Shown: positions 14,619 through 60,839 of the stretch, in pieces | How the letters are laid out: the number at the start of each line of letters is the position of its first letter | Numbering within the stretch: position 1 is the first letter of the stretch | Assembly (NCBI GenBank): GCA_021234155.1 | Contig: JAJEKV010000070.1 | Span: 4,990,754 to 5,054,753 of the forward strand | From: Isoetes taiwanensis | Lineage: Eukaryota > Streptophyta > Lycopodiopsida > Isoetales > Isoetaceae | Direction: 5' to 3' | DNA length: 64,000 nucleotides | Made by a program: the position numbers and the translations under genes | Notes under the pieces: generated by a model | The model's input: only the letters and a program-made list of their open reading frames with translations | Databases searched by the model: none | Told to the model about the DNA's origin: nothing

Positions 14619-14692
14619 TGCTTTCGCTAAGAGTCGAACTCGAGACCTCCCGCTTACTAAACGGGTGCTCTAAACAACTGAGCTACCGAAGC
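14619..14692 (-). tRNA. tRNA-Thr(AGU), type B
   Basis: Anticodon AGT. The acceptor GCTTCGG has two mismatches against CGAAAGC, so it is probably weak. Confidence 0.65.
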
Positions 14693-14748
14693 TTCAACAC
14701 CTCAGATTATAACAACATATATCACTTTCACCTCCACTTTTTTTTGCA

Positions 14749-14815
14749 CACTCTCGATGCGACTCGAACCCACAATCTCTTGATTAGAAGTAAAATGCCT
14801 TATCCATTAGGCCAC
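14749..14815 (-). pseudogene. tRNA-Arg(UCU) pseudogene, 5' end cut at the array border
   Basis: The T-arm, anticodon arm and D-arm are present, but the first bases of the acceptor are replaced by an (ATTT)n stretch that starts the non-array sequence. This marks the edge of the array. Confidence 0.85.
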
Positions 14816-17591
14816 AAATATATTTATTTATTTATTTTTGTCTGCCCTGCGTGTTTTAGCTGATATGATTTTCTTATTCGTGCAGCCCTTATGTGGAACA
14901 ACTCTGTCATGCCTGCCAGCAATGGATAGAATATGGAAGACCGTTGTAAATAAAACAGGGAGGCACGAAGTCTGAGGAGTATAAGACATTGGAAAAGACC
15001 TTGGCCCAGACTATCATCCAAGATAAGAAACGAAGGCCCAAAGAGATAGGAAAAAAAGTGGGAAGGAAGCTGGGGAGACTTCTGAAGCATCTTCCAGAGG
15101 CCCTGCAGATGCCTACAGGATCATCTTCGCTAAGGACCTAGTCTCGGTGAAGTGGAATGAGTTCTGGGATGCTTATGCTCAGAAACAGCTACCAGATGCA
15201 ATGGAAAGAGTGCCTCCTCAAGATACTTCCATATTTGATTTGAGGACCACCGAGATGAGAAAAGTACAGGGCCTTCAGGATGATGAAGTCATTTGGCTGT
15301 TAGATCAATGCATAAACAAAGAAGTTCTGTACAAGAAGGCTTCTTCAGTTAAGAAAAAAATGTCCTTCGTTGATTGTTGTACTCATATAAAGGATATGCT
15401 AGTTATGAAGGTAGCAGTTGGGCAAGAACTTCAGAAGCTATCTGGTCTGAACTCGGCCTGCTAGACAAGTACGGCGTGTCTACTGATGACATCAAGAAAT
15501 ACGTCTTCTGCTCCAAGGACTTTCTGAAAAACAGGAAATCAAAGAACCAACAGCATACTACAAAACTATCAGATACGGTGATGGCTGAGCTGAGAAGAAA
15601 GGTTTCCATCCTGATAGATGCTGGTGGTGACTTACCTGCACTCCAATACCTGGTCTCTACTAGCTATAAGGGTCTCCTACCCGATACAAATAGGCCCTCG
15701 TAATATTTCTCTGTTTGTATCGGATAGCAGAATTGCAAAAGGAGAGAAGCGGATGAATCAAAAGGAGTAGAACAGTTTTTTTACTAGCTGCATAGGCTTA
15801 ATAACTGAGAAGCTCTTTACTATTGTCATCATATGCCCTCCAGGAGAGCCTCATATGCATGTTTTGGTGGCTTCATACGACTTGGAATGCCTAAAGGTCG
15901 TTTAGAGAAGGTTCTCTTCTCTTTGAGACAAAAGATACTAATTTGAAGATGCACTTTAAAAGCGGCTGTATAATCTTCATAATGATATCCCTTGTGCCAG
16001 ATGATGACTATGAGGTAGCTAAGAGCAAAGGGGCATCAGATAAAGATGCATGGCAGTGTTTTCTTTTGGATGAGCCTAGCTTGAAAAATGTGTTCTACAA
16101 AGCAGATGATTAGGATGAAGCGAATGAATGCCAGGAATTTGATGTTCTTGACCTTTACCGAAAAGACATCACTCTAGAAAAGGGGCCCTTGAATAAACAT
16201 GGGTTTGCAATCAATCTGGCTAGCTATCTTGTTGAGGCTTTTGCACCACTTGATACCACTTGCTATGAACTTCATGTTGGAGGGTACACTGATATAGAAG
16301 CCCTGAAGACATCAAGAAGATGTCTAAGTTTCGTGAACAATGACCAGTCTAGGGATTTCCTGGAAGTGTTTTTCGAAAAGGTACTAGCCATGGCTGATTG
16401 GGGTCATGTCAAAGATAAAAATCCATTTGCTTTGGTACCTTACAAAGGGAAGAAGCAGACTACTATTTCACAATTGCCTCCAAGAACAACTCCAGAATGT
16501 TCAAAAAGCAATGCAACCCCCGAGGAGCAGGCCACAATGCTAGCGCGGGAACCTGAGATCATGGATCAAATTATGGAGTCTATGCTTGGTAATATTCCAA
16601 TTGGTAATGTTATACTTGGGGGTACGACTATGGTAATTCCTGATACAAGACAGGATGATCATGCAAGCTCATATTCAACCACTGAGGTTCGGAATCAGAA
16701 CCCTGAGGTAGCTTTCATAGAAGAGAACGTGTCCGAACTAAACCGTGGAGTTGATGCTTCTGGCAGTAAGCATCCGGGGAGTGAAGTAGATGCTACGACT
16801 GCTGGGGATGACCACAAAGGCTCTGATGATGAAATGTAATTCACGCCAGGCGCGATATCTAAAATACTTATGACGGACAAAACGCATTCGGCGTGTATTG
16901 CAGACAATTTTTGTATGGCTAACTCTTTGTTTTCTATGCTTCAGGGCTCCACCTGCTTATGGGCTTGTGATAAAATCATTGTCTTTGATCTGAATGGTGT
17001 CCTGTGTAAAAAGTTTCCTAAGAAGCTTATTAACAGGGATGACTTCGAACAAGTCTCTGTAGAATCGAATACTAAGTGGATCTATCCTTGCCCACACTTA
17101 GAAGATATGATGAATAAGGCATTCAGATTATTTTAAGTTGCCATCTGGTCCTCAATGGAGCGCAGAAATATTGAAAAGTTCCTAGGGTATTACCAGGAAT
17201 GAATAGAGACTTTGTGACGATTTGAAACCAAACTAAGTGTATAAAGTTTCCACATCCAAAAGATTCAGATGGCAAACCGGTCTTCGTTAAACATCGTGGT
17301 ACTATGATGGATCAGGTTGGCATTCAAAAGAAAGAGAACATCATAATAGTAGATGATGATGCTCTTAAGTGCTTTTATAATCAAGGTCAGGCTCTAAATC
17401 CACCAAGTTATACTCCACTAGATTACTCAACAGATGAGTTTCTAGTACTATTCATGTCCATCATGAGTGGGTTGGCTGCTGGTAAAACAGTATCAGATGT
17501 TGTCAAAATGCATCCAGAACTAGATCGGACTAAGGAGATGGATCCCTATCTTGAGAGTTATTTGACAAAGAAAGGACTAGTCCCTCCATGA
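14816..17591 (+). pseudogene. FCP1/NIF-type phosphatase-like gene, degraded
   Basis: The 3' half reads as the FCP1-homology (NLI-interacting-factor-like, HAD superfamily) phosphatase domain. At 16960-17136: KIIVFDLNGVL, where DLNG replaces the usual DxDG as in a plant subfamily, and YPCPHLEDMM. At 17137-17180: VAIWSSMERRNIEKFL. At 17304-17590: KKENIIIVDDDALKCF and a C-terminal tail ending KKGLVPP. Upstream are long open pieces on the same strand (15147-15464, about 15400-15703 and 16189-16839) that I cannot assign; the last is acidic at its end. Frameshifts, stop codons (for example after RLF at 17136) and a gap between pieces show that it is not intact. A splice acceptor at about 16944 suggests it once had introns. 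The family acts on phosphoserine/threonine in proteins. Confidence 0.65.
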
Positions 17592-30570: not shown

Positions 30571-31727
30571 ATTTCCCCACGTAAATTCCAGGGAGGAAAT
30601 TTCATGCGACGTGGCATTGTATTGACCACAACTTTAAGAAAATGATGCCCATCCCTTTTAACATTGCACACAAAAATATTATAGGTTTTAATCTAAGATT
30701 GTAATACACTAAAATTTCCTTCCCCTAACTTTACGTAAACAACAAAGCTTGTATTAACATCAAGCAATGCTAGTTCCAGCCAGGATAAATTATGACCTGT
30801 CCATGTTGCTTTGAACTGATATCTGTGTCCAGTACACCAAATATCCACATCTAAAAGTGCCTTGCAATAGCAGTATTACAAACCTTGATGCAAGGGTTTC
30901 CAGGACTACGAATGTACTCTATTTTACAAGGTACCAATATAGAGCTGAACTTAATGTACTCTATTTTACAAGATACCAACATAGAGTTGAACTTTGAAGG
31001 CAAATATGGTGCACAATATGCAAATCACCCAAAGCCAAAATCAATTATGTGTGAAAGAATATGTCCAAACATCTGTGCTTCCAAAACAACTTGTTGAAGG
31101 GTACAACAACAATTGATTTCTCCTGTGAGTCAATCATTATTATGCAAATTGGCTAAGCATTATTATGAAAAGATCAAGACCTTATGAAATACGTGTGATG
31201 AGCTACTATAAATGCTAAAGAGCTTAGCAGAGCTAGGCTGTGAGAGCCAATTGGGCATGCCATGAGGTGGTCAGGATAAGACTATTATACCCTTACCATG
31301 ATCTACGACCATAAATAAGAACATTAGCTTACTAGACAAAGTCCAAGATGCAAACAACAGATAATGCCTCAAAATATGCCAATTTCTAACAACAGAGTGA
31401 CATGCCATGTTTTAACAGTAGTGTTGATTGCAACGGGTTTTGCAAAACACCCTAAGTAACTTTAATAGGTGTGGAACAATTTTAATCCCTGGGCAAGAAG
31501 CCCGTCTACCTTGGGTCTGCAATAAGGAGATTTAGAAGTTATTGGTCTGGAACTCAAATTCGACAGGATATTACCACTGAAAAAATATTCCTCAATATGA
31601 AAGAAGGATGCAATATCTTTCACGAACATTTTCAATGATCATTACCACTACCCCTGGCATAAATATCTTCCCCTTGGCATAAATATCTTTCTTTAGCTTG
31701 ATAGTAAGAGGGGCTAACTTGGGACGT
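30570..31727. other. Stretch without recognisable genes
   Basis: A short direct repeat (ATGTACTCTATTTTACAAG, twice near 30911-30970) is the only structure I see. Confidence 0.5.
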
Positions 31728-32072
31728 GGGTAAATTTTTATTGGTGGTGTACAAAAAAACGAAATTCCAGCAGCTCGTCAGAACCTCGTCCGAGCGCTGC
31801 TTTTTTGCCTTCGATGGGCCGTACGGTTCATTGAAGACTGGCGACGGGCAGAAATGAAGTCTGCCACTGAATCATCGTGAAGTGTTCCGACGAGCCTCGA
31901 AATGCGCGCGAAATCGGGTCTGGCTATGATCCTCAATGATCACGAAATTTCGTAGCCTAATTGCAGACCTCAGTTTTGGATTTGCTCATTCCGATCACGC
32001 GCTTAGTTTGCTCATTCCGATCAAGCGCTTAGTGCTTGAATCAATCGGGCGCCTTGCTTTTTCGGTACAGCC

Positions 32073-34118
32073 ATGGATTACATGCTGAAGAAGGTAAATA
32101 ATCAATTTTTTTTGGGTTAGCTTCGAATTCTAACTTGTTTTCTTTTCTGTTACAGCTTCCGGTGGCTAGAACAGAGTATGTGTTCGCCACTTTTCGTGGC
32201 TTATGTGCAGATGGGAAAAAGCCAAAACAGTTGAAGCCCGAGGACGTGAGTGAGTGTGATTGGCTGCAGGTTTGGAGCAGCCCATTAGATAATGGCAAAA
32301 TGAAGATCAGTTTGGTCAGGCCAGCTATTAGGTCGGAGTTGGGAGAGCTTGTCCACAAGGTGTACCAGAAGAAACTGGTAAACAATGAAGTTCGAACTCA
32401 GTTTGCAAGGGCATTTGGTTGGCAGCATACAAGCAAAGCTTTATCAAACAAGAAGGATTACTTAGTGAATTGGGCTTCGTTTGCAGCGGACTCCTACAAA
32501 GATTCGCTGAAGAAACAGTCGAAGAAAACCCCTTTGAATGCTTTTGACAGGAATATCCAGAGCCTCATTAGCAGGACTAGAAAACTTCGGGAGATGAAAG
32601 CAGAGGCTAAGGGCAGACTCGTGAAGATCGAAGAGGAAGCTCTAAGGATGGAAGGCAGCATAACTTTTTCTGAACAATACTGCAGCCGTTTAGCAGATGC
32701 CATCGAAGAGAAGTACAAGCTTAGGTGCGACTTGCAAAGGGATTTTGCAGATGATGCGGAATATCAAAAGCAAGCAGCAGATTTCAAGCGTGAAGAGGAC
32801 CTGATGAGGGGGCTTCTGGAGGACACGCTTCGAGGCATGGGTAAGGACATGTATTCTAAGCTTGTTGAAGAAATTTCACAGCTTAAACGTGATGTGAAGT
32901 CTTACGAGCACAGCATTGAATCATGGCATTCGAGGGCCACTCAAGTTAATATTTTGAAGACCAACAAGAAATTATAGGAGATGCGGATCAGTATGGGTAT
33001 TTATAACCTCCCGCTTTTTGCTACTTCTGATGCATGTGAACTTTGTGGTCTGCAATTTAGCGAAGATTACAGCATGCTTGTGAAGCTCAAGTGCAACTAT
33101 AAGTGGCATCTAGCATGCTTTGGAGCTGTTTTAGTTGGCATGCACTGTCTGGTTGCAGGATGTAATGAAACAGTGCCACATGCCCTGCTGCTTGAGCTCG
33201 GCCATGTCACTGAGCATGCTGAATTGGATGTCCCCGAGGAATCAGGAGGGGATACAGAAGTTGAAGAGCCAAAGGTTCTTCCTTACAAGAGGAAGCATGT
33301 GGTGGTTGATACATCAGACAGCAGTGCATCTGAAGAAGCACCTGTCCCTGAAAGAAAATTCAAGAAACGGGTCACAAGGAGTGCCAAGAAAAAGCAGCAA
33401 ATAAAGGAGGTAGCAGAGGGTAAGTCTTGTACTTAATTTGAGAATTTGCTTCATGTTTTCATTGCTTCAATTAAGTTCTATTGCTGCTTTTTTATTTGTT
33501 CAGATGCAGATGAAGATGAAGACAAGAGCAGTCCAAAGTCACCTGTGCTGAAAGGTTGTTCTTGCTTTGCATTTGTGTGTTCTTATTCAATGTATGTATT
33601 TAATTCTTATATTCTAAATTGCAGTTGTGAATGACATAGCCAAGGACCTGGTGCTTGAGGGACTGATTGGGGAAGCTGATGAAGAAGGCTTTGGCAGTCC
33701 AATGAGCAGCAAATGTAAAGGTATTTTGGATGTCAAATCTATAAGGTACTTATGTTGTGGTATTTTAATTCAAATTCTAATGCAACTGTTTATGATTTGT
33801 GACTGTAGAAACAAGTGTCAAGCACTATGTTTGACCAAGCAATACAATCAAGAATTTGATGCTGAATTTGCCAGGTAGTACACTAGCTTCTCCCGAGAAG
33901 ACACTGCCAACCCCTAGTAAGTATATGTTTGACATTTTTATTTGATGTATGTTCTCGACACAAATTTAATTATGTGTCCATTTCTTTTTACAGCACTTCC
34001 AAATCCACAAGCAGAGGCTGCTGATCCTGTATCATCTCCTGATGATGAAGCCGAGAATGAGATGACTCTGGCTGAATCCTACATGAAAAATAGGGTGAAG
34101 TCAGAGAAAAAAGTTTAA
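32073..34118 (+). pseudogene. Coiled-coil protein with RING/PHD-like finger, first gene of the TIR element
   Basis: Exons that can be read: 32073-32093 (MDYMLKK), 32156-33419, 33504-33554, 33625-33720, 33809 to about 33916, and a last exon ending at 34118. The N-terminal 130 residues form a compact domain that I do not recognise (start LPVARTEYVFATFRGLC; also GWQHTSKALSNKKDYLVNWA). Residues of about 150-270 are highly charged and helical, a likely coiled coil. After an in-frame TAG at 32975-32977 the same frame continues with CELCGLQFSEDYSMLVKLKC and WHLACF, a C-x2-C..C-x4-H-x2-C zinc cluster of RING/PHD type. An acidic/serine stretch and a basic KKRVTRSAKKKQQ nuclear-signal-like segment follow. 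A TGA also sits in the fifth exon. Both stops could come from C-to-T changes. Function is unknown; by position it is the partner protein of the transposase-like gene. Confidence 0.6.
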
Positions 34119-34329
34119 TCTATGATTTCTGAACATCTGATATTTCAAAAAACTTTTAACTTATGTACTGATATTTGGATGCCATGAGGACATCCAGATA
34201 AATTTTGTATAGAACTTACTTGTATGACCCCCTTATGTGCTGATATATATTGGATAAGACTTATGTGCTGAGAAAATTTTGTATATGACACTTATTTTGA
34301 AATGTAATGTATATGCTACTTATTTCGTT

Positions 34330-34815
34330 TGTGCTACTTAAGCTATGAATGTATGTATAAGGTATGCATGTATACATGTATAAGGGTATACGTTGTGTAT
34401 AATGTATAAGGTATAAGGTATGTATATAGTATGTATAAGGTATAAGGTATGCATATAGTATGAATAAAGTATGTATAAGGTATGAAGTATGTATAAGGTA
34501 TGCTGTATATGGTATGAAGCAAGTATGTATAAGTACGTATAAGGTATGAACCAAGTATACTATATAAGGTATGAAGTCTGAAGGTATACTGCATGTATAA
34601 GGTATGTAGCAAGTATACTGTATGTATAAAGTATAAAGCAAGTATACTATATGTATAAGGTATGTAGCAGGTATACTATATGTATAAGGTATAAAGCAAG
34701 TGTACTGTATGTATAAGGTATGTAGCAAGTATACTATATGTATAAGGTATAAAGCAAGTGTACTATATGTATAAGGTATGTAGCAAGTATACTATATGTA
34801 TAAGGTTTAATATAT
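34330..34815. repeat. TATA-rich minisatellite
   Basis: Irregular tandem repeats of TATGTATAAGGTAT with AGCAAGTATACTATA, in units of about 43-46 bp on the right side and shorter ones on the left. It lies just past the 3' end of the plus-strand gene. The Tyr/Ile-rich open frames on the minus strand here are by-products of the repeat. Confidence 0.9.
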
Positions 34816-34914
34816 ACCATGTTTATAAAGTAAGATACCATAATGAAGTAATGAACATTGTGAATAACTTCATAATGAAGTAAATAACATTGTGAATAAC
34901 ATATTCTAATAAGA

Positions 34915-34992
34915 ATTTTACAATGAATGAATGTTACATTGAATAAGAATGTTACAATGAATGAATGTTACATTGAATGAATGAATGAATGT
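34915..34992. repeat. AATG-type microsatellite
   Basis: Runs of AATGAATG with two copies of GTTACATTGAATAAGAA-like text. Confidence 0.8.
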
Positions 34993-35039
34993 TTAATGGC
35001 TCACTTGTTCAATTATTCAATTGTTCAATTGTTGGCTTT

Positions 35040-35400
35040 CCACTTAAGCCTGCTGACTTGGCTGATGACTTGTTTGCTGCCTTGTCTGCTGACTTGGCTG
35101 TTGAGTTGGTGTGACTTGGTCATTGAGTTGGTCTGCCGACTTGGCTGTGACTTCGCCGCTTGACTTGCCTGCCGACTTAATTTCTGCCGAAGTTGGTCAC
35201 TGATTTGTCTGCTGACTTGCATGTTGACTTGACTGTTGAGTTGGTCAGCGACTTTGTCTGGCCGACTTGCTTGTTGACTTGACTGTTGAGTTGGCTGCCG
35301 ATTTGCCCTGCCACCGATTTGGTCACGACTTGTCTGTTGACTTGCATGATGTCTTCTCTGTTGACTTGCTCGGCCGACTGTCTGGCCGCCGACTTGCTCA
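35040..35400. repeat. Degenerate minisatellite GACTTG-N-CTG
   Basis: Repeats of GACTTGNCTG and GACTTGACTGTTGAGTTGG about 10-20 bp long. On the minus strand they translate into Ser/Gln/Arg-rich low complexity (QVSRQ-like). The tract lies directly after the stop of the minus-strand gene, in another frame. Confidence 0.85.
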
Positions 35401-36965
35401 TTTAGATTGCTATTGTTACCAAAGAACATCGAGGCTAGTACATGTGAATGCGCCTCGCAAACTTTCAAGTATGTTTTCATGGATATCATCCTCCAATTCA
35501 AACATATTACGTCCTATATCCTTCATGTCAAAATTGCAGGAGACAACTAAGTGACTGTAAACACTGCAGTCTGGCTCATATTCATGTAGTTCATACCTGC
35601 TGTCTCCCACCAGTTTATAAAACTTGCCTGTGACCACCACTTCCACTACAAGAGAATGGGCGTATAGTGTCAACCCTTGTGTCAAGGCATAAGTGTAGTG
35701 ACAACTTTGTGACCACTGCTACTTTCTTGACACAAAATGCTTTTATGTGTCAAAATTGTGTCATAGGCATAGTGTCAAATATTTTGTCAAAGCATTGACA
35801 TCTTTTTGTCAAGGTTATATTGCACTTAAAGTGCACATTTACAACAACTTTTCAACAATGTTATAACCGAGTTGTATAATCTTTTCTTAAGATTTGTAAC
35901 AAAAGTTCATTTAACTTTGTGTCCAATATCTTGACAAAGTTGTGTGGACCATTTCTAGATCATTATGATATAGTTGTATCCAATTTTGCATAAATCTTGC
36001 ATACATGCTAGAGGGATAATACTCAAGACTGAATACCCACATATCAAAATGATATATATCATAGCAGTACTTAAAAAAACTTAACAATGTTAACTAATCA
36101 TAGAACACATCAATTTGTTCACTTAGATCGTGCCCATCATCATCATCTAGATATAAATGAAGAGTCAGGTCTCGCACAATCTAGGACCATCTTGGGTGGC
36201 ATGAGGAAGTCGTTTCTTGTACAAGATGCTCTTCTGCCATACAACCCTTCAGTTTTACCATTTGACGCACAAAACCCTTGAGCACTTTCATCTAGCGCTC
36301 CAAAAAAAACATCCATCTACTAGGAGCAGGCTCAGCTAATCTGATCTCATTCATGTGCAATAGCAAATGCACTTATGGATGTAAGCACATTGTTAATGTA
36401 CTGAGAGTTTTCTTTTTGGTGAAGGACGCCAGTCTTTATTTAAACAAAAGTCAAATACAAGTAAAGATGCAAAGACAGGAATAAAATCTCAGAGGGTAAG
36501 CATGAAAACCCATTAAGTGAAGCAACCTGCCTATGCATAAGAGCGCACATGCAAAAACTCCTCAAAGATCAAGCGCCTCTTACAAGTGGCAAATGAAGAA
36601 CAATGATAAGAATATCTAGCATAATAACAGGGGGTTCTTTTTGTATTTTGGTACGCTTTTTGCTTATGGTTTTCATATGATTTGATGGGCATATTTCACG
36701 AGGCCTACTAATTAGTGCATATAGAGTGCACACTGTATTATCACATTTAATGGCATGTTATCTATGGGTTTGCAATGGTTTTTTGCTTCACAAATCTAAT
36801 TTCCAAAAATGCAAGGATCGAGGCGCTTCGTTTTAGGGTTCGTGTTAGGGTCGTGAAGGAAAGGGGCTTCTCAAGCATGTGATTTTGAGGAGGACAGAGA
36901 TGTGGTTCACAGAGGTTGTACAAAATGTAGGAAAATCCGAATTCTAGCGCAATAGCCTGGCAAAT

Positions 36966-37137
36966 TTGCATCTACCACCAGGGCTCATGTTCCATCTGAC
37001 ATATGAAGAATAGGTGGTCAAAAATTTCCATTCTGTCGAATCCGGTGGGCCCAAATCCAGTGGGGGGCCAATTGTGATAGCAGAGGTAGATTTCCATAAG
37101 TTTGATCCATGGGAGCTTTCAGCACATGCGTTGAAAG
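36966..37137 (+). pseudogene. Captured NAC transcription factor exon 1
   Basis: The frame reads HLPPGLMFHLTYEE, a stop (TAG), VVKNFH, then IVIAEVDFHKFDPWELSAHA. This matches the start of the NAC DNA-binding domain (LPPGFRFHPTDEEL ... EVDLYKFDPWELP). It ends at a GT donor at the position where NAC genes have their first conserved intron. Substitutions in subdomain A (Phe-Arg to Leu-Met, Asp to Tyr) and the stop mean it is dead. It lies inside CACTA-2, so it was probably picked up with part of its intron. No second NAC exon follows. Confidence 0.8.
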
Positions 37138-37973
37138 GTAGTGGTTGTTTTTCAGCCAGAGGGATAGAAATTACCCAAATGGAGCTAGACTCAACAGAGC
37201 TGCGACTTTGTTCCATATTAACCTGTCTTCTAAGTACGTTTTTTTTGTTCGTGAGCAAAACCAACTCTATAAACCACTTCCATCATCTAGCACTATACGT
37301 CCCTGCTGAGGACATGTTACAATGATACCATGGAAAAATGATTGAAGAGATTGACACAAAAAGAACACAATACAATTTTCCAAGCAAATTGTTATCATGC
37401 ACGAGATCAAGAAAAATTACTATGCCATATAAAACTTTCAATGTTGCTACAATAGGTAGAATTGCATAGCCAACATATAAGGACAAAATGGGCAAGATAT
37501 ACATAACATTGGGTACAAAAAAAACTATACCATTGGTGTCAAGAGAAAGAACTGCGGGTTTTCACGGATACAATGAAAAAGTTAGAGGTTGCATACAAGA
37601 AAAAGAAAGAAGGAAACATTCTAATCTTTAATCTCTTGCTCATGCCACATTTCAACATCTAAAATGTTTGCTAGAGATTCTGTCCAGGAACTTCGAAGCG
37701 GATTAGAAACTTGCTTGACAGTAACCATGGCATCATGAAGAAGAACGTGACAAAAGTAATAGAGGGAAAAGCTTTTTCCCTGACACCAGCACTTGAGGTC
37801 ATGTTACAGATGTCCAAAGCAATGAGGTCACCTCGGGTTAGCAGCTTTTAAGTTGGGTGCTGACGTGTTTTCCTACGTGGACAGTCTAGAATCGCAGGAA
37901 ATCGGTCACCTCGGGTTAGGCAAGCCTGCTAAAAATCATAAAAAAGGGAATCATGACAGAAGACTATGTATAA

Positions 37974-38073
37974 GGGAAAGTCCCTCCGGGCTTGATTCCG
38001 GAGGGGAAACCCTACCGACCCGCGGAGCGGGGAGGCTGGTTAACCCTCCGGAATCAAGCTCGGAGGGACTTTC
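37974..38073. repeat. GC-rich perfect-stem hairpin inside CACTA-2
   Basis: Two arms of 32 bp (left GGGAAAGTCCCTCCGGGCTT..., right its inverse) pair with one mismatch around a GC-rich loop of about 34 bases (ACCGACCCGCGGAGCGGGG). It looks like a small foldback element, GC-rich against AT-rich surroundings. Confidence 0.85.
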
Positions 38074-38839
38074 CCTCAACGTAGAGGATGGCTGGGCCCA
38101 ATCCAGGCGTGCCTCATGTCTGCATCCAGGTGAAAATATCAGAAGAGCAGGTACAAAAAGTCAGAAGGTGGCGTAAAAACCACGAAACGCAGAGTAAAAG
38201 CGGCGGAATGCAGAGTAAAGATGTTGGACATAGAAAAAGGTGACATGTGTCACCTATTCATTGGATGAGACGGCTGGATTGGGCCCAGCCGTCCTTTACG
38301 TATTTGGTAAGGGTCAATTAAAAGATCATTCCAATAAACGTCTCTACTTATGTGGACCAAGGCAAAGAAAAAAGTCTTTTCTCCATTAATTCAATTCAAT
38401 TCATTAGATTTTTACAACTTTAATGGTTGTGGTAGGTATTCTAAGAGTCTTAAGTTTTAAGGTTTTAAAATACGAAAATGGAACCTATAACTTATACGAG
38501 CCTTAAGGTTTCGAAAAATTCCACAAAGGCAAGAAGAAGAGAGAGAAAAAAGTAAACGCGGGAAGAGCAGAAAATTTATGGAGCGATCTTACCTGGTTCT
38601 GGTTCGCATCACCGCAGTCTTGATCATTATCCCATCGTCTACAAACAGAGGCACCCTCTGCTCATATCCATTGGTGTTTGCCATCAGCGGAGTCACCATC
38701 ATCGCCATCAGTAAGTTTCTTAAAACTTTCTATTTAGGATTTGACATTCAATTCAAATCAGTTAGTAGCATCAACATTCTTTTGGCATTCAATTCTCTTG
38801 TTTTACTCTCTAGTTTCTCCAAACGGATAGGGCAAGGAT

Positions 38840-40890
38840 AAAGATGGATCAACAGAGGAGTAATGGCAAAAGGCTTGAGAGTTTTCTTGTTAATGTGCCT
38901 GAAGATCTTTTGGCCGCCCTGATGAGCGAGTTGAGAACGGGTTCACAAAAATGACGCAGTGGATGACGACACCAGAACCATCAAGGAAGCAAAATGATAG
39001 CCCAGAAAAAGAAACAAGAAGGGAAAGGAGAGGTAAGGGGATTCAATGATCTGATATATTTTCCTCCATTCTTGCTAAATTTCTATATTTTCTGTTCTTT
39101 GATAGATGGATGCGAAGATGTGTACTTTTTTGTAGCCAGTGCCAGTTTTTTTAAATAATTATGAACCAGCCCTATGCTAGTTTTTCTCATATAGGTTTGC
39201 TGCAATTCGCAAGCCGTAATGTACTGTGGTAACTTGTCTTCTCTATTCATAGTCATAGATATTGTAAAGTTTAAGCAAAATTAAGCCTGTTTCTGAGTAG
39301 AAATGTTTTGATAGAAATTGTTGTCTAATGCTAAAATAACCTACTGAAACGATGTTGCATTCCATCCTTTTGTAGTTGCAGCCAGTCCCTTATGTATGCT
39401 TCTCGTATTTATATATTTATTCCTTTTCCAGGCATAAGGAATGGCTACGATCATCTAATTCATCCAATATTTTAGAAGCTGAAACGTCAAATCAAAGAGC
39501 CGAGAGAAAATCGTGAAGCTCTATTATCTTACATTGCCACATTGTCTTGAGTGCTTCGTCCTCATCTGAGGAGGACGATGAATCTAATGGTGAAGGTCAT
39601 TAATCCTCTGACGGAGATATCGAGAAAGACACTATTGACATTGACTTGTCTTACAGTGTTCAATTCTGAAGATTATCTAACTCAAAGATATGCCCTTGTT
39701 CCACTTGTGCATCAGATTTTGTACTTCATCTAGTTACCATGTCAATTAGGCCTATATTCAGACTGTACAGAGGTCCAATCTGTGTGTTATTGTGTAATAT
39801 GTTCATTGTTCCTTAAGGGATTTTTACATTTAACTATATTGGCATTTAAGTTGTAATTTCTTTGTACTAGAACGCCATCTCGGCAAATGCATATCAGCAC
39901 ACAGTCATCTCAGCAAATGCATATCTGCATCCCTGTGAACAAAATGCTGCCTATAGGATCTTCCGTATGCTACGGGTCTTCCTTCTACTTTTTTCCCTCA
40001 TCTTCATGTCATTCTAAAGTTGTAAATAGATGTAATAGAAGTGATTTATTCTAGCTATTTCTACAAGGCTTGCTATTTCTCCAAGCCTGTTCTTGAACAG
40101 CTGCAATTTAACTTCATTGGTGAAGAGATCTCCTACCTGATTACTTCTAGATCAGTAACAGGAGCAGTTGCGCCACATTGTACCTTCTTACACGTTATGT
40201 GTTTTTAATATATTTGATGGTTGCCTGATAGTCCCACAAAAAGTTTAAAAAACTGTTGAACTTTTAAATTTCAGAGATTCTGGCATTTATTCTTGAGGGT
40301 TTTGCATCTGTGTTGACATGTGCATTTTGACATGTGCATTTATCATTGCTGGTTTTGCACTGCTGACAATGTACTTTTAAAATTCAGGTATGTTTCTATA
40401 AGGAACGGTTATTGCGAGATGAAGAGAAAGCGGTGGATGCTTTGAAAGCTTATTGCAGGGAATTGGATAAACAATTAAGGAGATCAATCCTCGCCCCTTT
40501 GGCAGACTTTGAAATATATTCATGACCAGTTTGGTGATAGTGCAAGTAAGATGGAGATTGTTAGATTTTTGAAGAAGAGATTGAGACAGTGGTGGTAAGG
40601 ATCTAAACGCTTTCTGGCTGTCATTGTATGTAAGATTAATTTTACTGACATGAATAGTAAGCTTTTCTGGTTGTCATTGTATGCAAATTTAATTTTACTG
40701 ACATGAATTATTCTAGAGACAACTTACGAATAAATGTCCATGCTTGGAAATGCTATAAAACAATGCATGTAGATGAAGAGTCATGGAAACGATTTGTAGA
40801 GTCTTGTAACAGGACTTATCAGCGTCAAAGGGATGGCGCTGCCGTACGAAGAAGAAGACAACGTATTGGTTCTGAAGGGGTCATGTCCAT
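38840..40890 (+). pseudogene. Exon-like pieces of an unrecognised gene carried by CACTA-2
   Basis: Open, charged segments follow one another with splice-like borders. About 38845-38955 reads MDQQRSNGKRLESFLVNVP and EDLLAALMSEL. About 39555-39665 reads SSSSEEDDESNGEGH (acidic). About 40390-40595 reads RDEEKAVDALKAYCRELDKQ and, in another frame, HDQFGDSASKMEIVRFLKKR. About 40715-40890 reads NVHAWKCYKTMHVDEESWKR and RTYQRQRDGAAVRRRRQR. They may come from one nuclear protein gene. Frame changes indicate decay. I cannot name the family. Confidence 0.4.
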
Positions 40891-43380
40891 CAAAACAAAG
40901 TTTGTAAATATCCCCTTTCTTTACGTAAAAAATCTGTCCTTTCCTTGTAGCTCCCTTCATTTTTGACATTTAGGTTTTGCTCTGCATGAAATAGAAGTCT
41001 GCCATTCAGCCTAGAATATGGGTGCCCTGCAGTACCAACTAATTTCAATCTACCTAATTTCTGACCTGCATGAAACAATTTTTTTTGTGAGCATTTCGAA
41101 CGTATTTGAGGCTGCATGGATGTGGAGCAATGCTGCAGCAATGCATCTGGCTATGAGCCTGGGTTTTCCAAATGTAATTTCTTTAGTATCCATATAGAGA
41201 CATCAAATTATGTCCACCCAGTACATAGAGCTCTGAAATCATGTACTGAAAAGCATGTAGAAAACTTCACCCCTAAGTTTGCAAGCCGAGATTTTGTAGT
41301 TCTGGTGTTATAAGTACGGTTATTGAATGTCTCTGAAATATAATCATCACCATGTTTGAGACATATTGGATAGATATATCTGGGCAACTACTTATGGCAG
41401 GTATCAAATCATAGAATAGTCCAATTCATGAGGATATTGATCTACACATCCGTTGTATCTTAAGCAATAGCAAAGATCCAGCACTGACAGTTGACGTTGC
41501 TTTCTCATTTGGTAGGTGGATGCTATTTGAATTCCTTTATAAGGTCCAGGGCTCCTGAATTGTCAACAAAAATCTGGGCTATTTTGATAGGAAGATAAGT
41601 AACCAGAGCAATTTTTGAGTGCCTTCAATGAGAGCTTTAATTTTTGCTTCTGTGTTACTTAGACTTACAGTATTTTGTTTCTTTGAAGTCCATGTTAGAG
41701 CACTTGTATCAACGAGAGAAACATAACCAGTAGTACATCTTCGATAATCATATCAGTCCTGCATGATCAGCGTCCGTATAAAAGACCAATTTTGGGTTTT
41801 CTTGTATATGGTAAGTAAGCCTCCGCAGATTAGTTGGTCTACTAATGTGTTAGATTTCAACACTTAAATTCTTATGGAACAAATTCTTATGGAAATATGA
41901 AGTTGAAATAACATTTCTGCATTAACATTTGTTTCAAAGTCTGATATACATATGTGAAATGTAATTAATAGGGAGAATGCAGTGGAGAGAAAAATGATGG
42001 TTTTGAAGGCACATCTGGTGATCCACAAGATGGACATAATGTTGCCGATGGATAAGATCAAACATTATTCTGATTTGTTAAGTCTTTGAAGATTTCTCTT
42101 GTTCTGTAGTATTTGACCTTTTGATATGAGCATCTCATTTGTAGAAACCTTATTATTATGAATAAGAATCTTCAAACATGTGTATCTTGTTGCACACCGA
42201 AGTATCAATGTAAAGAAATGGAATCTTGCTATTACACAAATTATAATACAATTTCAAAAAGGGTTGCAATGGTTGACGCAATTAACAAATTTGTTTGAAG
42301 AATGGTTCTTTTCTTGTCATAGAACATGTTGATTTCCTTGTTACTGGGTCTGACAATTGCTTTGACAAAAGGCATCATGCACTAGCTGATGCAATATTTG
42401 GAGTAATTTAGTCACAAGTTTCGATGCTAGCTAATTTATAGTTGACGAAACATATATGCCATGGTGATTATTAGCTTGTCACAACACTGATGGAATTTTG
42501 CCACTATATGTACAATTATTTATTGCAATTGAGTTATAATATTGTTTGAACATATATGCCATGGTGGTTATTAGCTCGTCAAAACTTTGATGGCAGTGCT
42601 TTAATATTGTTGGATCAATTGACGATATTTTAATGTTACATTTGTTATAGTGCCCTCAAAACTACCAATGCTATATTGACACTAACTTGTTGGCAATGAT
42701 GTTGCAATTTCGTTAATAAGGTGCCTCTATGACATGAGTTATGACAACTGAGTGTGCCACAATCTTGACATAACACTTGACGCCCGAGCGTCAACTTTGT
42801 GGTAAATGATCACGTCAGGTATAGTGTCAAAAATATGACAACTTTTGAAGTTTAAGAGGATCTATTTGTGTCAAGATTTTTGACGTTATACTAGACGTTA
42901 TTGGTACCTTTCTCTTGTAGTGTTCGCTCCTCCCAAATTTTTGGCCCCAAGGATCTTTGTATGCTTTCTCTACAACATGCTTAGGTACAGTACATTTTAA
43001 GATGTAGAAATCAACCTTCTTCTTATTACCTGCTGGAGCAACCACTGCAAAGTTCTCTCCTACATCTATAATATCTCATTTCCACTCAGCATCTCCCTCA
43101 TAGACTGGCCCATCAACAAGTGCAGCATCATCCTCAATCCCTGGTCTTAATTCTGAAAACGTCCAGGTACCTATCCTATCTTTGTGTATGCACTTACGGA
43201 CTTACCCACCCAACAATTATGACAAAAGCATGAGTAATTCATATGTGCAACTTGAGTGGCATCCTTGGAGTTCACTGGCCTGATGCTATGAAATTTACTG
43301 GACCCTGTTAAAGTAGCACAGTCGAACTGCTCAACCCTGCTTACTTCATCCAGCTTGATCTCCCAAAAATACCTACAAAC

Positions 43381-43520
43381 ACATATTAATGAGTAACATT
43401 GAGTAGTGTCTAATAAGTAACATTGATGAGTAACATTGAGTAATGAGTAACATATTAATGAGTAACATTGAGTAGTGTCTAATAAGGAACATTAATGAGT
43501 AACATTGAGCACTGTCACAG
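43381..43520. repeat. Short tandem repeat GAGTAACATT
   Basis: A block of about 60 bp built from ATGAGTAACATTGAGTA and GTGTCTAATAAG is duplicated inside an intron region of the minus-strand gene. Confidence 0.8.
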
Positions 43521-46500
43521 CAGTCATGAATCCTATGTAAAATGTACCTATGTTTATCAGAATCCTTGAAGTGTTCCCTGCAGAATTGAACAACATCATG
43601 AGCATCCCGTAAAGGCTTGGAATTCCTCTTTAACATTTCGTGTGTGAGTGCTCTCTTGAGAACGACCCCTGCCCCATCATGCTCACCTGCCATTCAAACA
43701 ATTGTGTCTATTATCTTACAAAATGTAGGCCAATCAAAACTGATCTGAATTTACCTTTTCCATGATATGAAGCAAAGTAGTTCCAGTTTATTGGAATGCC
43801 AGAGCTCTAATAGAATCTCCCAAGAAAGTAGAATGTTCTTGCACCCTTGAACTGGTGTGAGCAGCCATCAGACCACATTACATGGTTGTTGTATCTGACT
43901 AACTTGCTGGCCAAGTAATCAGCATGCTTGTTTAGACAGTGTTGGACGAATAAGGTGTCATGATCTCTATCATCCGAAATGTAAAAATGTGTCTCCTTGA
44001 TGATATGCCTGTCACCACTGCTGAAAGAGTTCTCTTCAACCTCTCTTGCTGTTGCATGCATGTAACTGATGTGCACAAGTATTGTGCACTGATCATTTCT
44101 CCAACGCAAGCTTTGGATTTCCTGCTGTATTTTGAAGGTATAGTTTTCAGCAAAATCTATGACTGATACCACAGTGTTTTCTGGGAAAGTGCCTAGACAT
44201 TCTCTGAATTGCTTTGCTTGCCACTTGCCGCATAGTTATGGGGAATGAATTCAGTCACAATCTTTTTGGCATAAGACAGCACATCTGCTGTTGAACTGGT
44301 CTTGTATACAAGCTTTACAATTGGCTTTGGAACCAATTTTGTCCCACCATTGCCATCAACCTCTTTTGCTGATTCAAAAACCTGAAAAGAAGAAAGTACA
44401 ACCACAAAATAAGTTTAAGACAACCACAAATGAAAAAACTTAATATGCTTCACATACCTTGTCAAAGGTTTTTCCATTCTACCAAATGCCCTGAACTCTT
44501 GCTCAATTCTTTAGGACACATAGGTAACTTAGAAGGGCCACAGGCTTTGCATTTCAGCAACATGCAGTCATGAGCATACCACTCATTTGCAACATCCTTA
44601 GCACATACAATTGACCTCCACAAATCACTTGATGATTTGTAGGTCATTGCATTTGCTTCACATTTCGGTCCAGCACCACAGACAGAACAAGTACAACTGC
44701 AGTCAACACCATGAATATTTCTATCCAGCCTAATTTTGTTTAGTGCTTGTCTGACATAGTGAAGCCTCATGTGGTACACACAACAGCAAGTTTCTCTATC
44801 CTTTACTTTTCGAACGAATGGAGGTTTTAGTGCACGGAATGCTGAGAAAGATACTTCAAATTTTGGTTATTCTCTTCGAAATCTTGCATAAAAAGTGCAC
44901 TGCATTATAAGCAACAAAAAGGGTTAGCATTGTGAAGAAATGAAATGATAAATTTCAAACAAAAAAAAAAAAAAACCTCAGTTTCCTCCAGAAAGTGAAG
45001 AGCATGCATTATCTTGTTTCCTTTACCAAGCCTAATCTTAATAACATGTTTCTTGCATGGTGAAACTCGTGTCTGAAAAGTCCAAAAGTCAGTTACTAAT
45101 TTTTGTTGTTTCCTGCTTAGTTTATCAGATCTGGTTTTCTTTTTAAACATTGACCATGGCCATCACCAATTTCTGCTGTTTTCCTTCTCTGAACTGCTGT
45201 AGTAACATATCTTCTATTCAAGTTCAGACACTTGGAAGTTCCCAAGCAATTAGTGCCAGGTACAACATCATATACCATGGATGAGGTCCTTGCTGTAAGC
45301 ACATCCATTGACCTGGCATACTTATGCTTTGCAAGAGAATTCCTCAAGTTGTTGACAATCTTAGTCATTCTCCCTAATTCTTTCAATTTCAACATTTCAA
45401 ATTATGGCAGCATCTTAGCAGCACCTTGAAGAACTTCTTTCCTCTCCTTTTTTGACAGTTTTCGACATACCTTATTAGCATGTCCATCAATCAACTTCTC
45501 TTGCTCAAAACATCTTCCAGATCTTTGTCATCTTCTAACAATTCAGCCTCCCTTGTTCTTTTTCTTGCTCTCTGCTGCCTTTTTCTTTGTGCATCGATTT
45601 TCCTATAGATTAACAAATTTTCTTGTGCTTCAGATTCTGCAAATAACAACAGTTATGAAAATACAGCACAGTGCACATAACTTGAGCACAAAAAAGGAAG
45701 TCAGTACAGCACCAATAACCTGCTTCAATTTTGTCATACATGTGCTGGTCTTGGATGTCCTCTGCATAATCTTGGATGTCTTCATGGACAAAGAAATCCT
45801 CTTCTTTCTCTCTTCCAGATTCTGCAATTAATAAAACTTCTGAAAATTAAGCAATAAATTTTATTGCAAATGAAAGCAATGACCTGCTTCAACTTGGTCC
45901 TCCATGCTGTTCTTGAATGTCTTCTGTAGATTCAACACCTGTAGCATCATATGTTGAAAACTGTGTATCTTTCTCAGCTTCTGCAAATTAAGAACAAATC
46001 AATAACAGAACCAAATTCAATGACCCAAGAACTGCTGATTACTGAACTACTGATTACCATGAATGTATTCATAGCCAAAAGATTGTTCTGGAACATCAGG
46101 AACGTTTGCAAAAGGCTCAGTATAAGGCGTATTCCCAGCAATTTTGGAGGCCAGCCGACCACACAGCTGCTTAAATTGCTGGGATTGCTCTACAAGATTA
46201 TGTAAACTGGACAGTAAATTCTTAGAATCAAATCTTGTTCCATTCTTAGAAATGGCCAAAAGGAATGCGCCTTCCCAATTCGCTTGATTGGAAAACATCT
46301 GCAAAGAAAAGCAGCAGCTGCATTCTGCCAAACAAACGGAGCTTTGGAAAATTTGCCCGCCAATTGCAAATTCCAAGCAGCACCCGAATTGCTACATACC
46401 AGGGATCGCTGACTTGGACAAACAATCGGCCGATCCTCCAAAATTGATCCGAGATCAACCGTTCCGGAGGTTGGGAAAAAATGGCGGGGAGGGAAAAAAA

Positions 46501-46601
46501 CAATGACGGGTGCCAGGACGTCACGATGAAGGTCTGCCAGCACCCGTTAAGCACCCGATGTCCCGGACTGCTTTTTTGTACACCACCAATAAAAAAGACC
46601 C

Positions 46602-47490
46602 ACATGTAAATCAGAATATTTCCTTGTGATTAATACGTGGAGATTCACATGCCTGTAAGCATAACATTGTTGGAACCTTAAAATCCCATTTGATCTATGC
46701 CAAGAAATAAATTTCCTGAATAATAGAGAGACAAAAGCGCATGTCATTGACTTACTTAATAATGGTATAATTGTGCTTCAGTACAGTATCTCAAGTTTCA
46801 AAATTGACATACACGGCTACCTGCACAGTTTTGTCACCAGACCGAAAATAATGAGATAGCATTCATGTGCACCTTTGTCTATAGCAAATAAATAGATTAC
46901 CTAATGAGTAATGCATATTCTCTAATCTATGAAATTGTACAATTACCACATCCATACCTGCACATCAGTAACAACCATGATTTGAAGCCTCTGCTATTTA
47001 GATAAAAAGCATAAAAGCCATTGCAAGTTCATAGCATTGCATATTTTTCTAAAAATTTTGCAAACTTACCCCGGCAAAGCAAAACCGAAACAGTTCTAAA
47101 TCCGTTTTTTCCATAGTGGATTGATGCAGACCTCTTCAAATAAAAGTACATGGCTAATCAGGTTCGTATGGCATAGATCCGGCATTGTACCCTTACTAAA
47201 GCACAGATCCAGCATTCCGGCTAAAACAAGTAGACCTGGAATATTCTTGTTTTCCAGACTTTAGAACTCTGGGCAACCAGGGTAGCTGCATTTTTGATAA
47301 CTATAGCATTTTCAGAATACTGGTGCTCAAAAGCATTCGAATTTTGTATCATAATTAAACCTAGCACTATTGCTAGTGAGTGAGTTTGGTGCCTATCATT
47401 TACATGGTCCAGAGGTTAGCTGCAGTCATGAGTAGGAGCCTGAACCAACACATGGAAAAGCAAAGATGGAGGAAAACATACCTGCCACCA
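46602..47490. other. Stretch without recognisable genes
   Basis: AT-rich; no assignable ORF or repeat. Confidence 0.5.
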
Positions 47491-48331
47491 GGAAGCAAAT
47501 TCAGTATGCCAGTCTTAGGTAAAATGCTTCCTAGAGAGTTTATAAATTCAAAAACCTTCTGTCCTTTCTAATAGCTACTCCCAAATGCAGTGTGAGATAT
47601 TACATCTGCAGTTAAGCAGTTAAGCTGTTCTAACTCGAAACCATGCTCTTCAATAGCAAATTCCCATTTTTGCACCATCTGTAAGGTGCAGGTAACCATG
47701 GCACCCACCATTTCCTACGCTTACAAGCAAGGATATAATATATGTTATCTTTACAAACCTAAGCAGAATAATAAAATAACTGGTACCTTGAGCTTCTCTG
47801 CATGAAATGCAGGAGACGTCTCCTCTGCACCCAATCTTCTCCTTTTGCTGATATTAGACCATTTCCAGCAAGATCCTCTATAAATTTACGCATCATAGGG
47901 CTCTTGCCAAAATGGTCGAATTTCCTAGAGAGGACATCTCTTATCATATCCGGGTCATCTATAACCAACCTTGGTTGATCCCCAAGCCATGTCAAATATA
48001 ATTTCCCATACTGTTGGGAGTAGAATTTATGATCAGGTAGGACATGATCAACAATATCATGTGTTATTTCACTGAAATCATTCCCACGAGCTTTTGCACT
48101 CAGATCTAAAATGTGCAGCATATTGCCAAAGATGGGAAGAGATGGGGGCCCTCTGATGCCCTGTTGCAAGAAGAAAGCTCTGATACTTCGAGGCCTGAGA
48201 AAGTAATGCTTGAAGTGGCTCCATAGCTTCCAGGCAAAAAAAATTGTTACAAGCCCACATAGAATCCATCCGAGTCTTTGATCCAAGAAACAAAAAGGCA
48301 AGCTTTTCTTATCCAAGAAACAAAAAGGCAA
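47490..48331 (-). pseudogene. Cytochrome P450 pseudogene (CYP72 clan), two 5' exons
   Basis: Exon 1 (48331 to about 47790) has an N-terminal membrane helix (WILCGLVTIFFAWKLW), the Pro-rich hinge GIRGPPSLPIFGNM, YGKLYLTWLGDQPRLVIDDP and LISAKGEDWVQRRRLL, typical of the start of a CYP72-clan enzyme (haem monooxygenase, ER-anchored). Just before the exon end the reading frame breaks where LLHPAFHAEKLK is expected; the DNA looks like a 7-bp loss between two CCTGCAT copies. Exon 2 (about 47690-47495) reads EFAIEEHGFELEQLN and LTADVISHTAFGSSY, then a TAG, then KVFEFINSLGSILP and a donor GTATGT. The I-helix, ExxR and haem-binding exons are missing. Confidence 0.85.
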
Positions 48332-48344
48332 GCTTTTCTTATCT
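48285..48344. repeat. 30-bp tandem duplication at the P450 start
   Basis: The unit CCAAGAAACAAAAAGGCAAG plus ten more bases occurs twice; in the P450 frame it doubles a peptide like FLDKKSLPFC. Confidence 0.9.
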
Positions 48345-48903
48345 CGTTAGGGAAGCATCTGCAGCCATTTTCCCCATATCTGAGACCGTTGACAGAGAGT
48401 CTGGCCATTTTTGTTTGAAACAAGTGTTTGTATGCCCTAAATCTATATCGATCTCAACAATGCAAAATTTAAAAAAGAAAGCCAAAACATCATTGAGAAG
48501 CCAAGTTTGCCAAAGAACCTGCAAAATCTGCTGGATCTGCACCCAAGAGGCCTCGCCATGCCGAATCTTTTCAAAAAGATCAGCACCCATGAGCCATACT
48601 GTGAAGACAACTCGAGGTATATTAGTAAACTTTCAACTTTCCCCTTTGCAGTACTCAGGCATGAGCTTCTTGAAAGAAACAAAAGAGGGGAAAAAAACTT
48701 ACGTAGAAAAATATGCCAAAAAGTTCATGAAACCCGCATCCTTGCCGAACTTCTTTTGCCGTAGAAACCCGCATCTTTGCCCAACTTCTTTTGCCGTAGA
48801 GAATCTTAGGTGTTTTCATAGAGATGAAAAAAGACCAAAGGCAAGGCCCTTCTAATAACTGCCCACAACGTGACCTAATCTAACGGTTTAGAACATTTAA
48901 AAA

Positions 48904-58367: not shown

Positions 58368-60839
58368 TTAGAGAATTGCCTGATCTTTTTGGTATAGCAC
58401 ATCCAGCCTCCTGGTTTTCTTTAAGGGCTGTTCTGATCCAGAACTTGCCTCAGAATCACTTCCAGCTCTATGATATTCACCATGGACAATACCATTATCT
58501 TCTCCAACATCCCTTCCATGATAAGCATCTGGAATAGACCAGTATCCTTCTGGATCATCCTCGTATTCTCTATGTGTTGCTGCAGCCCTTCTCTTCTCCA
58601 ATAAGTGATCCCAAGAACATTCATGAGTGTCCTCAATTAAACACCCAAAACAAGTGCCATCTTCTTGGGTCTGAACATTATGCACATGTTCATTGTGCAC
58701 CTCTTCTTCATGCACATGTTCATTGTGCACCTCTTCATTCATGCACATGTTCATTATGGTCGCAGAGCCTACAAAACATATCAGCATTAAATAAAGAGTC
58801 TAAATGAGGATTTGTTGTAGCAGCTGCATGTCTCCTTTGCCTTAATCTCCATTTGGTCTTTGACCTAGCATCCAAAACAGGTTGAGGCAGCATTTTTTCA
58901 TCTCCAAACAACTGGCCTACAGTGAATTTGCATTTACCTTGTGCATCATAAATCAGAGTCCTATACCTAGCTGACATCCTTTCATAATTTGCCTCTGCAA
59001 CTTTTTGTGCCTCCTTGGCAGCCTTCACAATTGCCTTTCTTTTATTCTCTTGCTCTTTAGCCATCTTCTTCTCTGCTGCCAATCTCTTTTTTTCTGTTAC
59101 TCTCTCAGCTCTAACCTTAGCAGCCTCTACCTTTCTTCTGTCCTCTTCAATTCTTGCACTAATCATTTGATCCGAAGTAATAAATAACTTATCAGCAAGC
59201 AATTCTGGTAGCCTAGACCTTTTAGCTCTTGGCAGCATGTCAACAATAGCAGGAGTTGGTACATGTGGATGAGCAGATGGCACTAATTGTGGTGCTGGAT
59301 CAGAGATTACATGATCAGAGATTAAGGCAAAGGAGACAGTAGGGGCTGCAACAGCATGCTCCAAAATAGTGGAGCTAGTATTTTCATTCAGATTTAGCTG
59401 AGGCATTGAAGGATCTTCAAGAATAGGTCCATTCTCCTCAATGTCATTATCAGCAACATCATCTTCACTGTCCTGCACAACAAGATCATTAGCAAATGGA
59501 TCAGGAGAAACAGCAGTTGGATTGAAGAGCCAGATCCCTGTCTTTGCAAAGCCAACAGCAATATTGGGAGTCAAAGACTCCTTCAATGATGTAGACAACA
59601 TCATAGCCATATCCTCTTTTGTAGGTTCATGCTTTGGTCTAGTATGCATGTAAACACCCCTGTTCCTTCTAAAACGAGCCTTGAATGGAGAGAAGCATGA
59701 TACATCAAGAGGCTGCAATTTATGGCTAGTGTGAGGAGGTAAGCAAAGGATATGGAGGCCAATTCTCTTGGCATGTTGGATGGCTTTCAAGCTGACATGA
59801 CTCCCATGGCCATCACAAATAAGCAAATGTGGTCTATTTTCAGAAATTCCACCTGGAACACTTGCTGCAAAATGGTCAAGCCATGCACCAAACAACTCAT
59901 GTGTAATCCATGCTTTTTGTTGGTACGCCATGGCTGCACCAAGCTCACAGCCTGCCATTAGATCTCTATCCCTCATCCTCTTTCCCTTGAATACATAACA
60001 ACCTGGCATCACATGTCCTGCTGCACTAACACAGCATAGAACTGTTAGCCATTCTCTATTCTTAGGAATATGCTCACACACATTCCTATGTCCTCATCTA
60101 GCAAGGATTCTAACACTTTTTCTGCCACCAGCTTGCACTCCAGTCTCGTCACAGTTCCATATAGTGGCTGCACTCAAGTTTAGATCAGTCTGCAGCTTTC
60201 TTAAGGCAAGGTAGAAACCCTCCAAGTTAGTAGAGTTCATTGCTTTGACCCTCTGGACCTCCACACATTGTGGTGATCTCAAAGTGAGCTCGGGATTCCT
60301 CTTTTTGAACCCTCTCCACCATGATCTTCCTGGAAGACCATCTTTAAATAGAGTTTGTCTATTAATACACATTTCACTGACTTTCTCTCTCTCAATAATT
60401 ATAAAGTTACTCCTCTGCCCTCATCAGCACATTGATGACAGGATTGGACAAGATAACTTTCCTCCTCTTTGGTCAAACATTTAGGCACAGATCCAAATTT
60501 CACATCAGTTAAACCATTTACCCAATTTAGAAGAGTGGTTTTGGGAACACCATAGTGTTGGGAGGCCTTCCTAATGGACATGATGCCATCATCAATGGCA
60601 TCAATGGCCTCTTCCATCTGCTGCATTGTCCATGATCCCCTTTCCATTAATCTGATCCTTTTGCCACCAGGAATTATAGAGTTACACGGATTGATCAAAA
60701 GCCTCTTTGATCTTCCATTGGACTTGGTTGGCTGCCTCGAATTTTCAGCTACAGCAGCAGTAGGTGGAGTATGCAAAGTTCTGCCTCCTCTTAGCTGCAT
60801 TGGTGGAAGGAAGGAAGAAATATCAAAGGGATGCAGCAA
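58368..60839 (-). pseudogene. pogo/Tigger-type DDE transposase, broken
   Basis: The N-terminal piece (60839-60399) has a psq/CENP-B-type helix-turn-helix: MEEAIDAIDDGIMSIRKAS, QHYGVPKTTLLNWV. Next (60372-60094) come GLPGRSWWRGFKKRNPEL and the first catalytic Asp in TIWNCDETGVQAGG. Then (60081-58735) come REWLTVLCCVSAAG, the second Asp in HLLICDGHGSHVS, LPPHTSHKLQPLDVS, the third Asp region, and a long charged tail. A one-base frameshift near 60395 and a TGA at 60096-60094 (in a context where Arg or Lys is usual) inactivate it. The C-terminal end shifts frame within a 30-bp repeat, and an acidic extension with NEHVHEEEVH is read to 58368. The family cuts and pastes DNA at TA sites. Confidence 0.88.
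58681..58758. repeat. 30-bp tandem repeat in the transposase 3' end
   Basis: The unit TGCACATGTTCATTGTGCAC plus ten bases occurs twice plus a partial third time. In the reading frame of the last segment it encodes repeated His/Glu motifs (NEHVHEEEVH). Confidence 0.9.

Follow-up and report, generated by a model that had tools for sequence, protein, structure and literature searches.

In a window of 64,000 nucleotides from the lycophyte Isoetes taiwanensis (assembly GCA_021234155.1, contig JAJEKV010000070.1, positions 4,990,754 to 5,054,753; G000:C1079:4990754-5054753 in our numbering), positions 31728-46601 are occupied by a DNA transposon with terminal inverted repeats (TIRs) and two convergent genes. 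Searches of the genome (G000; 1,658,258,908 bases in 1110 contigs) revealed that its family is common in Isoetes taiwanensis, and that the copy in the window is old and decayed. The best explanation, to which we assign a probability of about 0.88, is a decayed two-gene cut-and-paste transposon that would work in a Sola-like manner, with a putative DDD-type transposase (gene 2) and a conserved partner protein (gene 1).

The borders were established from the inverted repeats together with the copies found elsewhere in the genome. A perfect inverted repeat of 24 bp connects 31735-31758 with 46572-46595, and genome copies carried the ends out to 31728 and 46601 with the tip GGGT on both sides, which places the left TIR GGGTAAATTTTTATTGGTGGTGTACAAAAAA at 31728-31758 (plus strand) and the right TIR GGGTCTTTTTTATTGGTGGTGTACAAAAAA at 46572-46601 (minus strand). 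Genome searches with each end gave at least 41 and at least 40 matches, most of them ending at or near 31728 and 46595-46601, respectively. The genome contains the 16-mer TATTGGTGGTGTACAA 271 times, compared with two occurrences of its reversed-letter control, and the inverted-repeat family is thus far beyond chance. Among the 100 places of this 16-mer that were listed, 16 adjacent pairs less than 20 kb apart point inward, 13 of them spaced 4.9-7.9 kb, and six such pairs show other orientations. Target-site duplications (TSDs) were read at both ends in 19 copies, which comprise the window copy, other members of its family and close relatives of that family. A perfect duplication of 4 bp was present in 16 of them and an identity of 5 bp in none, so that the two genes share their borders; as the duplicated sequences vary (TAGG, TGAC, CATA, TTAA, CACC, TATA and others), the target is not fixed as TTAA. 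Of 11 copies excised whole, seven measure 7.5-7.9 kb and the remaining four 4.9-7.0 kb.

Gene 2, the putative transposase, extends on the minus strand from about 46298 to 35030, both limits being deduced from the copies and from GT/AG sites, and is split by a nested element. On the same basis its core exons were placed at 45636-44977, 44899-44458 and 44381-43755 (with DFAENY, WSDGC and HGKG), followed by 43686-43548 (EHDGAG) and 43372-42923 and resuming at 35643 and below. The hand-spliced protein is rich in cysteine: a basic N-terminal part precedes a Cys block (CCCVYHM...CxCxxCGxGPxC), after which VSVIDFAENY, WSDGCxxQFK and HGKGEHDGAG lead to a Cys-containing C-terminal part. All four blocks DFAENY, SDGCSHQFKG, HGKG and EHDGAG are present, the last two being joined across a putative intron. 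Wherever the motifs were readable among 25 loci, the first Asp (D1) was kept in 18 of 20, the second (D2) in 16 of 18 and the third (D3) in 18 of 18; in the window's family, D2 and D3 are separated by 40 residues. Judged from the protein sequence, this order would correspond to a DDE/D nuclease with Asp in third place, i.e. to the DDD type. Genome matches to gene 2 (150 scored out of 7037 rough candidates) descend to 66% identity among those listed.

Gene 1 lies on the plus strand from 32073 to about 34118, with a first exon at 32073-32093 and a large exon from 32156, limits that were derived from splice-like sites. It looks like a coiled-coil-like protein with a RING-like finger, the latter recognized by its Cys/His pattern at 33035-33163 (plus strand), and is laid out as N-terminal domain, coiled-coil-like part, finger and charged tail. 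Of 28 loci, 17 show the core C-x2-C..C-x-H-x2-H-x2-C, and 13 have the final C-x4-C as well and so the full pattern C-x2-C-x10-16-C-x-H-x2-H-x2-C-x8-14-C-x4-C; the three loci of a sister family, family B, are not among these 13. Tyr replaces the first His of the core in the window copy, and the sole library match to the coiled-coil-like part is a weak one to Rootletin (E 0.003). Altogether 145 genome matches to gene 1 were listed (142 scored of 2502 candidates), with identities down to 33%. The initial annotation of the window had proposed TIRs around two convergent genes, one coiled-coil/RING-PHD-like and the other carrying the four blocks named above, and had called for a comparison of many copies to see whether both genes share borders; the TIRs, the convergent genes, the four blocks and the shared borders were borne out, and gene 1 is RING-like by its Cys/His pattern. 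Outside the genome, searches of IMG/VR and GTDB genomes with two gene-2 profiles (A1, A2) and a search of IMG/VR with a family-B peptide retrieved no confirmed relatives; the DNA pattern for F-x3-HGKG-x2-DG occurred in nine stretches of IMG/VR, the matched frames of which held no other block. A scan of 31000-47500 with Rfam gave nothing at gathering score.

Both genes also travel together. A listed gene-2 match is situated within 10 kb of 32 of the 145 listed gene-1 matches, with about 0.26 expected, and 31 of these 32 pairs are arranged tail to tail, two of the 31 being pieces of one gene. Furthermore, in four additional loci gene 1 and the main exon of gene 2 diverge in the same order, with identities of 66% and 87% in L052, 41% and 73% in L051, 38% and 70% in L050, and 34% and 69% in L049. 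Ratios of nonsynonymous to synonymous substitution rates (dN/dS) were calculated for hand-picked pairs with no significance test, pairs without a ratio being saturated at synonymous sites. For gene 1, eight of 12 pairs tried yielded a ratio, all eight below 1 (0.22-0.55 in six close pairs), and for gene 2 eight of 13, seven of them less than 1 (with four close pairs at 0.11-0.25). Tandem-repeat arrays lie between the two genes of the window copy (34261-35513). Their counterpart in copy L025, a 12-nt array, codes in the gene-2 frame for a tail rich in Lys, Ser and Ala, and in L049 a Lys-rich repeat frame adjoins the catalytic exon; these copies thus vary in the short tandem repeats that separate the two genes or border them.

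The length of 14.9 kb in the window copy is due to an insertion. Although the initial annotation was right to regard 31728-46601 as one transposon as far as its borders are concerned, about half of this stretch is a nested CACTA-type element of 7.3 kb (35644-42922, ends CACTACAAGAGAA and TTCTCTTGTAGTG, TSD TTC), which is no part of the transposon and lies in the terminal portion of the transposase gene. Of the six copies compared, five (L021, L022, L024, L025, L027) align straight across the junction 35643/42923, and the sixth, L031, has a deletion at the insert site. Gene 1 of the window copy contains an in-frame TAG at 32975-32977, and gene 2 is disrupted in its main transposase exon by a frameshift (near 44233) and a stop codon (43807), for which reason this copy is not expected to be active; insert and damage had both been overlooked. 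Within the insert no stop-to-stop frame exceeds 116 residues, and GC-rich inverted repeats are found at 37973-38301.

A second, diverged end, reported near 13316 in the initial annotation, was confirmed as well. A fragment of 262 bp inside a tRNA array (13049-13310, minus strand, TIR GGGTCTAAGTTAGATATTGGGGTACAAAAAAGCG) shares 97-98% identity with the left ends of three family-B copies, and in a genome search with this end the best 40 of 307 candidates were scored, each of them with at least 94% identity and the window itself among them. Each of the three copies cut out possesses a stretch similar to the gene-1 N-terminal part (E 5e-14, 3e-14 and 2e-7) and, further along the same strand, NIF-like frames. 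A gene-2 homolog was detected in two of them (L046, L048), 27-63% identical piece by piece, and none in L047 within 9.8 kb; the ends of L046 are 7.1 kb apart and flanked by the TSD TAAT. A RING-like stretch of L046 (LPCEHVYHLAC...CFRC) reached E 0.009 in Pfam, below cut-off, and does not fit the pattern of the window's family (family A). In L048 and L047, the NIF frames matched PF03031 with E 4e-10 and 1e-11 (39.9 and 44.9 bits), which means that both family-B proteins scanned passed the cut-off of 21.8. Their acidic motif reads DINGVL, and with the second Asp replaced by Asn, phosphatase activity is uncertain. A genome search with the NIF query produced 5621 rough candidates, of which 150 were scored, and 18 of the 40 listed family-B ends have a same-strand NIF match, taken from the first 51, that lies 2.2-4.0 kb toward the interior of the element. 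Family B is a sister family with a predicted NIF/FCP1-like phosphatase domain downstream of the RING-like stretch. One weaker NIF match was noted in L050, outside its gene pair, and several open NIF-like frames at 46-48% identity, e.g. at C1035:4665153 and C46:454028, might represent either additional transposon families or genes of the host.

A full-length element is about 7.5-7.9 kb long, with GGGT at both termini and a duplicated target of 4 bp. Gene 2 most likely encodes a DDD transposase, which would bind the TIRs, excise the element and insert it at staggered 4-bp sites; this catalysis is predicted because of the three conserved Asp. The protein of gene 1, which has stayed beside the transposase through deep divergence, most likely would aid mobilization or counter host control, and its RING-like finger might perhaps act as a ubiquitin- or SUMO-ligase-like cofactor. 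In family B, the NIF domain may add a phosphatase-like function.

Several results weigh against this reading. The hand-spliced gene-2 protein of 865 residues had no match in Pfam at E up to 10; searches with gene 2 also gave none in NCBIfam, four meaningless matches in PHROGs (E 0.15-0.32), and nothing below E 0.6 among PDB sequences. As a positive control with the same Pfam library, a 452-residue open reading frame of the window (58735-60093, minus strand) was assigned to DDE_1 (PF03184, E 1e-24). For the Cys-rich DDE-nuclease-like protein of the initial annotation, the richness in cysteine and the motif order stand, but the RNase-H fold, for which structure prediction had been recommended, was left unsupported: AlphaFold, run with no alignment on a 142-residue exon of the window, reached a predicted local distance difference test score (pLDDT) of 41.5 and no usable fold. 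D2 is Asn in L033 and L044, and D1 is lost in L026 and L029. Among the 19 copies read, the TSD is one base off in L026 and in the window (ACGT at 31724-31727, ACAT at 46602-46605), and L028 matches in two of four bases; one of the two family-B copies read, L048, agrees by eye in three of four (AAGT/AAGC). Pfam RING models remained below their cut-offs in gene 1, with a weak match in three of four proteins and none in the fourth, and one gene-2 pair with few changes (L021/L022) had a dN/dS of 1.24. No partner within 10 kb was present among the listed gene-2 matches for 113 of the 145 gene-1 matches, which is no evidence of absence, since only listed matches were compared.

If the DDD transposase formed a lineage of its own, regularly accompanied by a RING-like partner, the element would represent an undescribed superfamily and not Sola. 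We consider this rather improbable. It would agree with the failure of the gene-2 protein in Pfam, with the persistence of gene 1 beside gene 2 down to 33-38% gene-1 identity among the matches listed, and with the literature, the accessible portions of which held no description that we recognized as this family. However, we know of no Sola model in Pfam, and the missing match therefore says little. Moreover, the 4-bp TSD, three Asp, TIRs and a size of 7-8 kb fit Sola as characterized in the available part of its description (PMC10741241). The initial annotation, which placed the element outside known plant superfamilies, agrees with the Pfam result in that gene 2 matches no transposase model there, but its proposal of a new system is probably too strong, given that 4-bp TSD and DDD motif are marks of Sola and that the accessible text of one source records Sola1 in the moss Physcomitrella (PMC9033089). 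Still more doubtful is an extended version with a DDD-transposase superfamily of seed-free plants, a regular RING-type partner and a NIF phosphatase in one very numerous branch, the proteins of which would jointly modify host proteins. Just as doubtful is its functional side, by which ubiquitin or SUMO tagging and dephosphorylation of the RNA polymerase II tail would allow escape from silencing or steer transposition.

An AcademX-type element is less probable again. AcademX is reported, in the part of the source available, to have TSDs of 3 or 4 bp, among which the 4 bp found here would fall, and TSD lengths of two Academ lineages are tied there to an encoded helicase or nuclease (PMC10045372). 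The gene-2 protein is Cys-rich, which would suit such an assignment, but neither a helicase nor a nuclease domain was detected by Pfam among the scanned proteins of gene 1 and gene 2, some small open reading frames lying outside the scan.

Horizontal transfer from an animal into the lycophyte is very unlikely. What would speak for it is a presumed presence of similar blocks in cnidarian and insect proteins, of which the initial annotation had named the cnidarian ones in particular, and of HGKG-x2-DG blocks in animal proteins. If this affinity were true, a DDD lineage would be common to animals and seed-free plants. Against a transfer stands the deep divergence in one genome, with listed matches down to 33% for gene 1 and 66% for gene 2 and with the low piecewise identities of gene 2 in family B, which suggests long residence, even if several transfers might have led to it as well. 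That inverted repeats flank two unrelated genes by mere chance, or that host genes were captured, can practically be dismissed: no known transposon domain occurs in gene 1, but the same borders and TSDs recur in many copies and co-location is far above chance.

The surroundings of the transposon comprise the tRNA array at 665-14822, in which 29 tRNA genes were predicted by ARAGORN, all on the minus strand and mostly alternating between Thr-AGT and Arg-TCT in tandem, with one Ser and one Leu call; the family-B fragment lies within it. A cytochrome P450 N-terminal exon or fragment (47759-48346, minus strand; PF00067, E 6e-9) is found near the right end of the transposon, and the DDE_1 frame at 58735-60093 is of the pogo/Tigger-like kind.

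A second gene kept for so long in DNA transposons is a good place to seek factors that act against silencing or in targeting, and this one genome allows a branch that has a phosphatase domain to be compared with one that lacks it. Many NIF-like and RING-like frames in the Isoetes genome are probably transposon genes, which bears the risk of their being annotated as host phosphatases or ligases.

Among known systems, CACTA/EnSpm, MULE, hAT, PIF-Harbinger, Tc1/mariner, piggyBac and Kolobok are likewise cut-and-paste transposons with TIRs. CACTA, MULE, hAT, PIF-Harbinger and Tc1/mariner were rejected, as gene 2 lacks a Pfam match at the threshold given above, and their other TSD lengths do not fit; CACTA identity applies to the nested insert only. 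PiggyBac and Kolobok duplicate TTAA, which accounts for only one of the 16 perfect TSDs. Sola elements, in the available part of their description, have a DDD transposase, a 4-bp TSD, mostly 2-9 kb in length and TIRs from 11 bp (PMC10741241). The element resembles them in its TSD (4 bp in the copies counted above and never 5 bp), its TIRs of about 30 bp and its size, which lies within 2-9 kb in the 11 whole copies; its predicted DDD-type motif order is suggestive, and Sola is recorded in a moss. By these published descriptions, we lean toward membership of the element in the Sola superfamily. A difference is that the accessible passages on Sola mention neither a RING-like nor a NIF-like partner (PMC10741241, PMC9033089). 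An accessory gene as such has a parallel in Sola1-1_Ec32 of the brown alga Ectocarpus, in which, according to the portion of the source at hand, a large accessory gene with ParB-like and DNA-methyltransferase domains lies on the opposite strand from the transposase (PMC12477816); that element, however, measures 21.5 kb, whereas the present one measures 7-8 kb and carries a RING-like partner, in family B also a NIF domain. Most likely, the transposon is to be placed close to Sola, as a lycophyte variant with two genes and with a sister family that is notable for its NIF domain.

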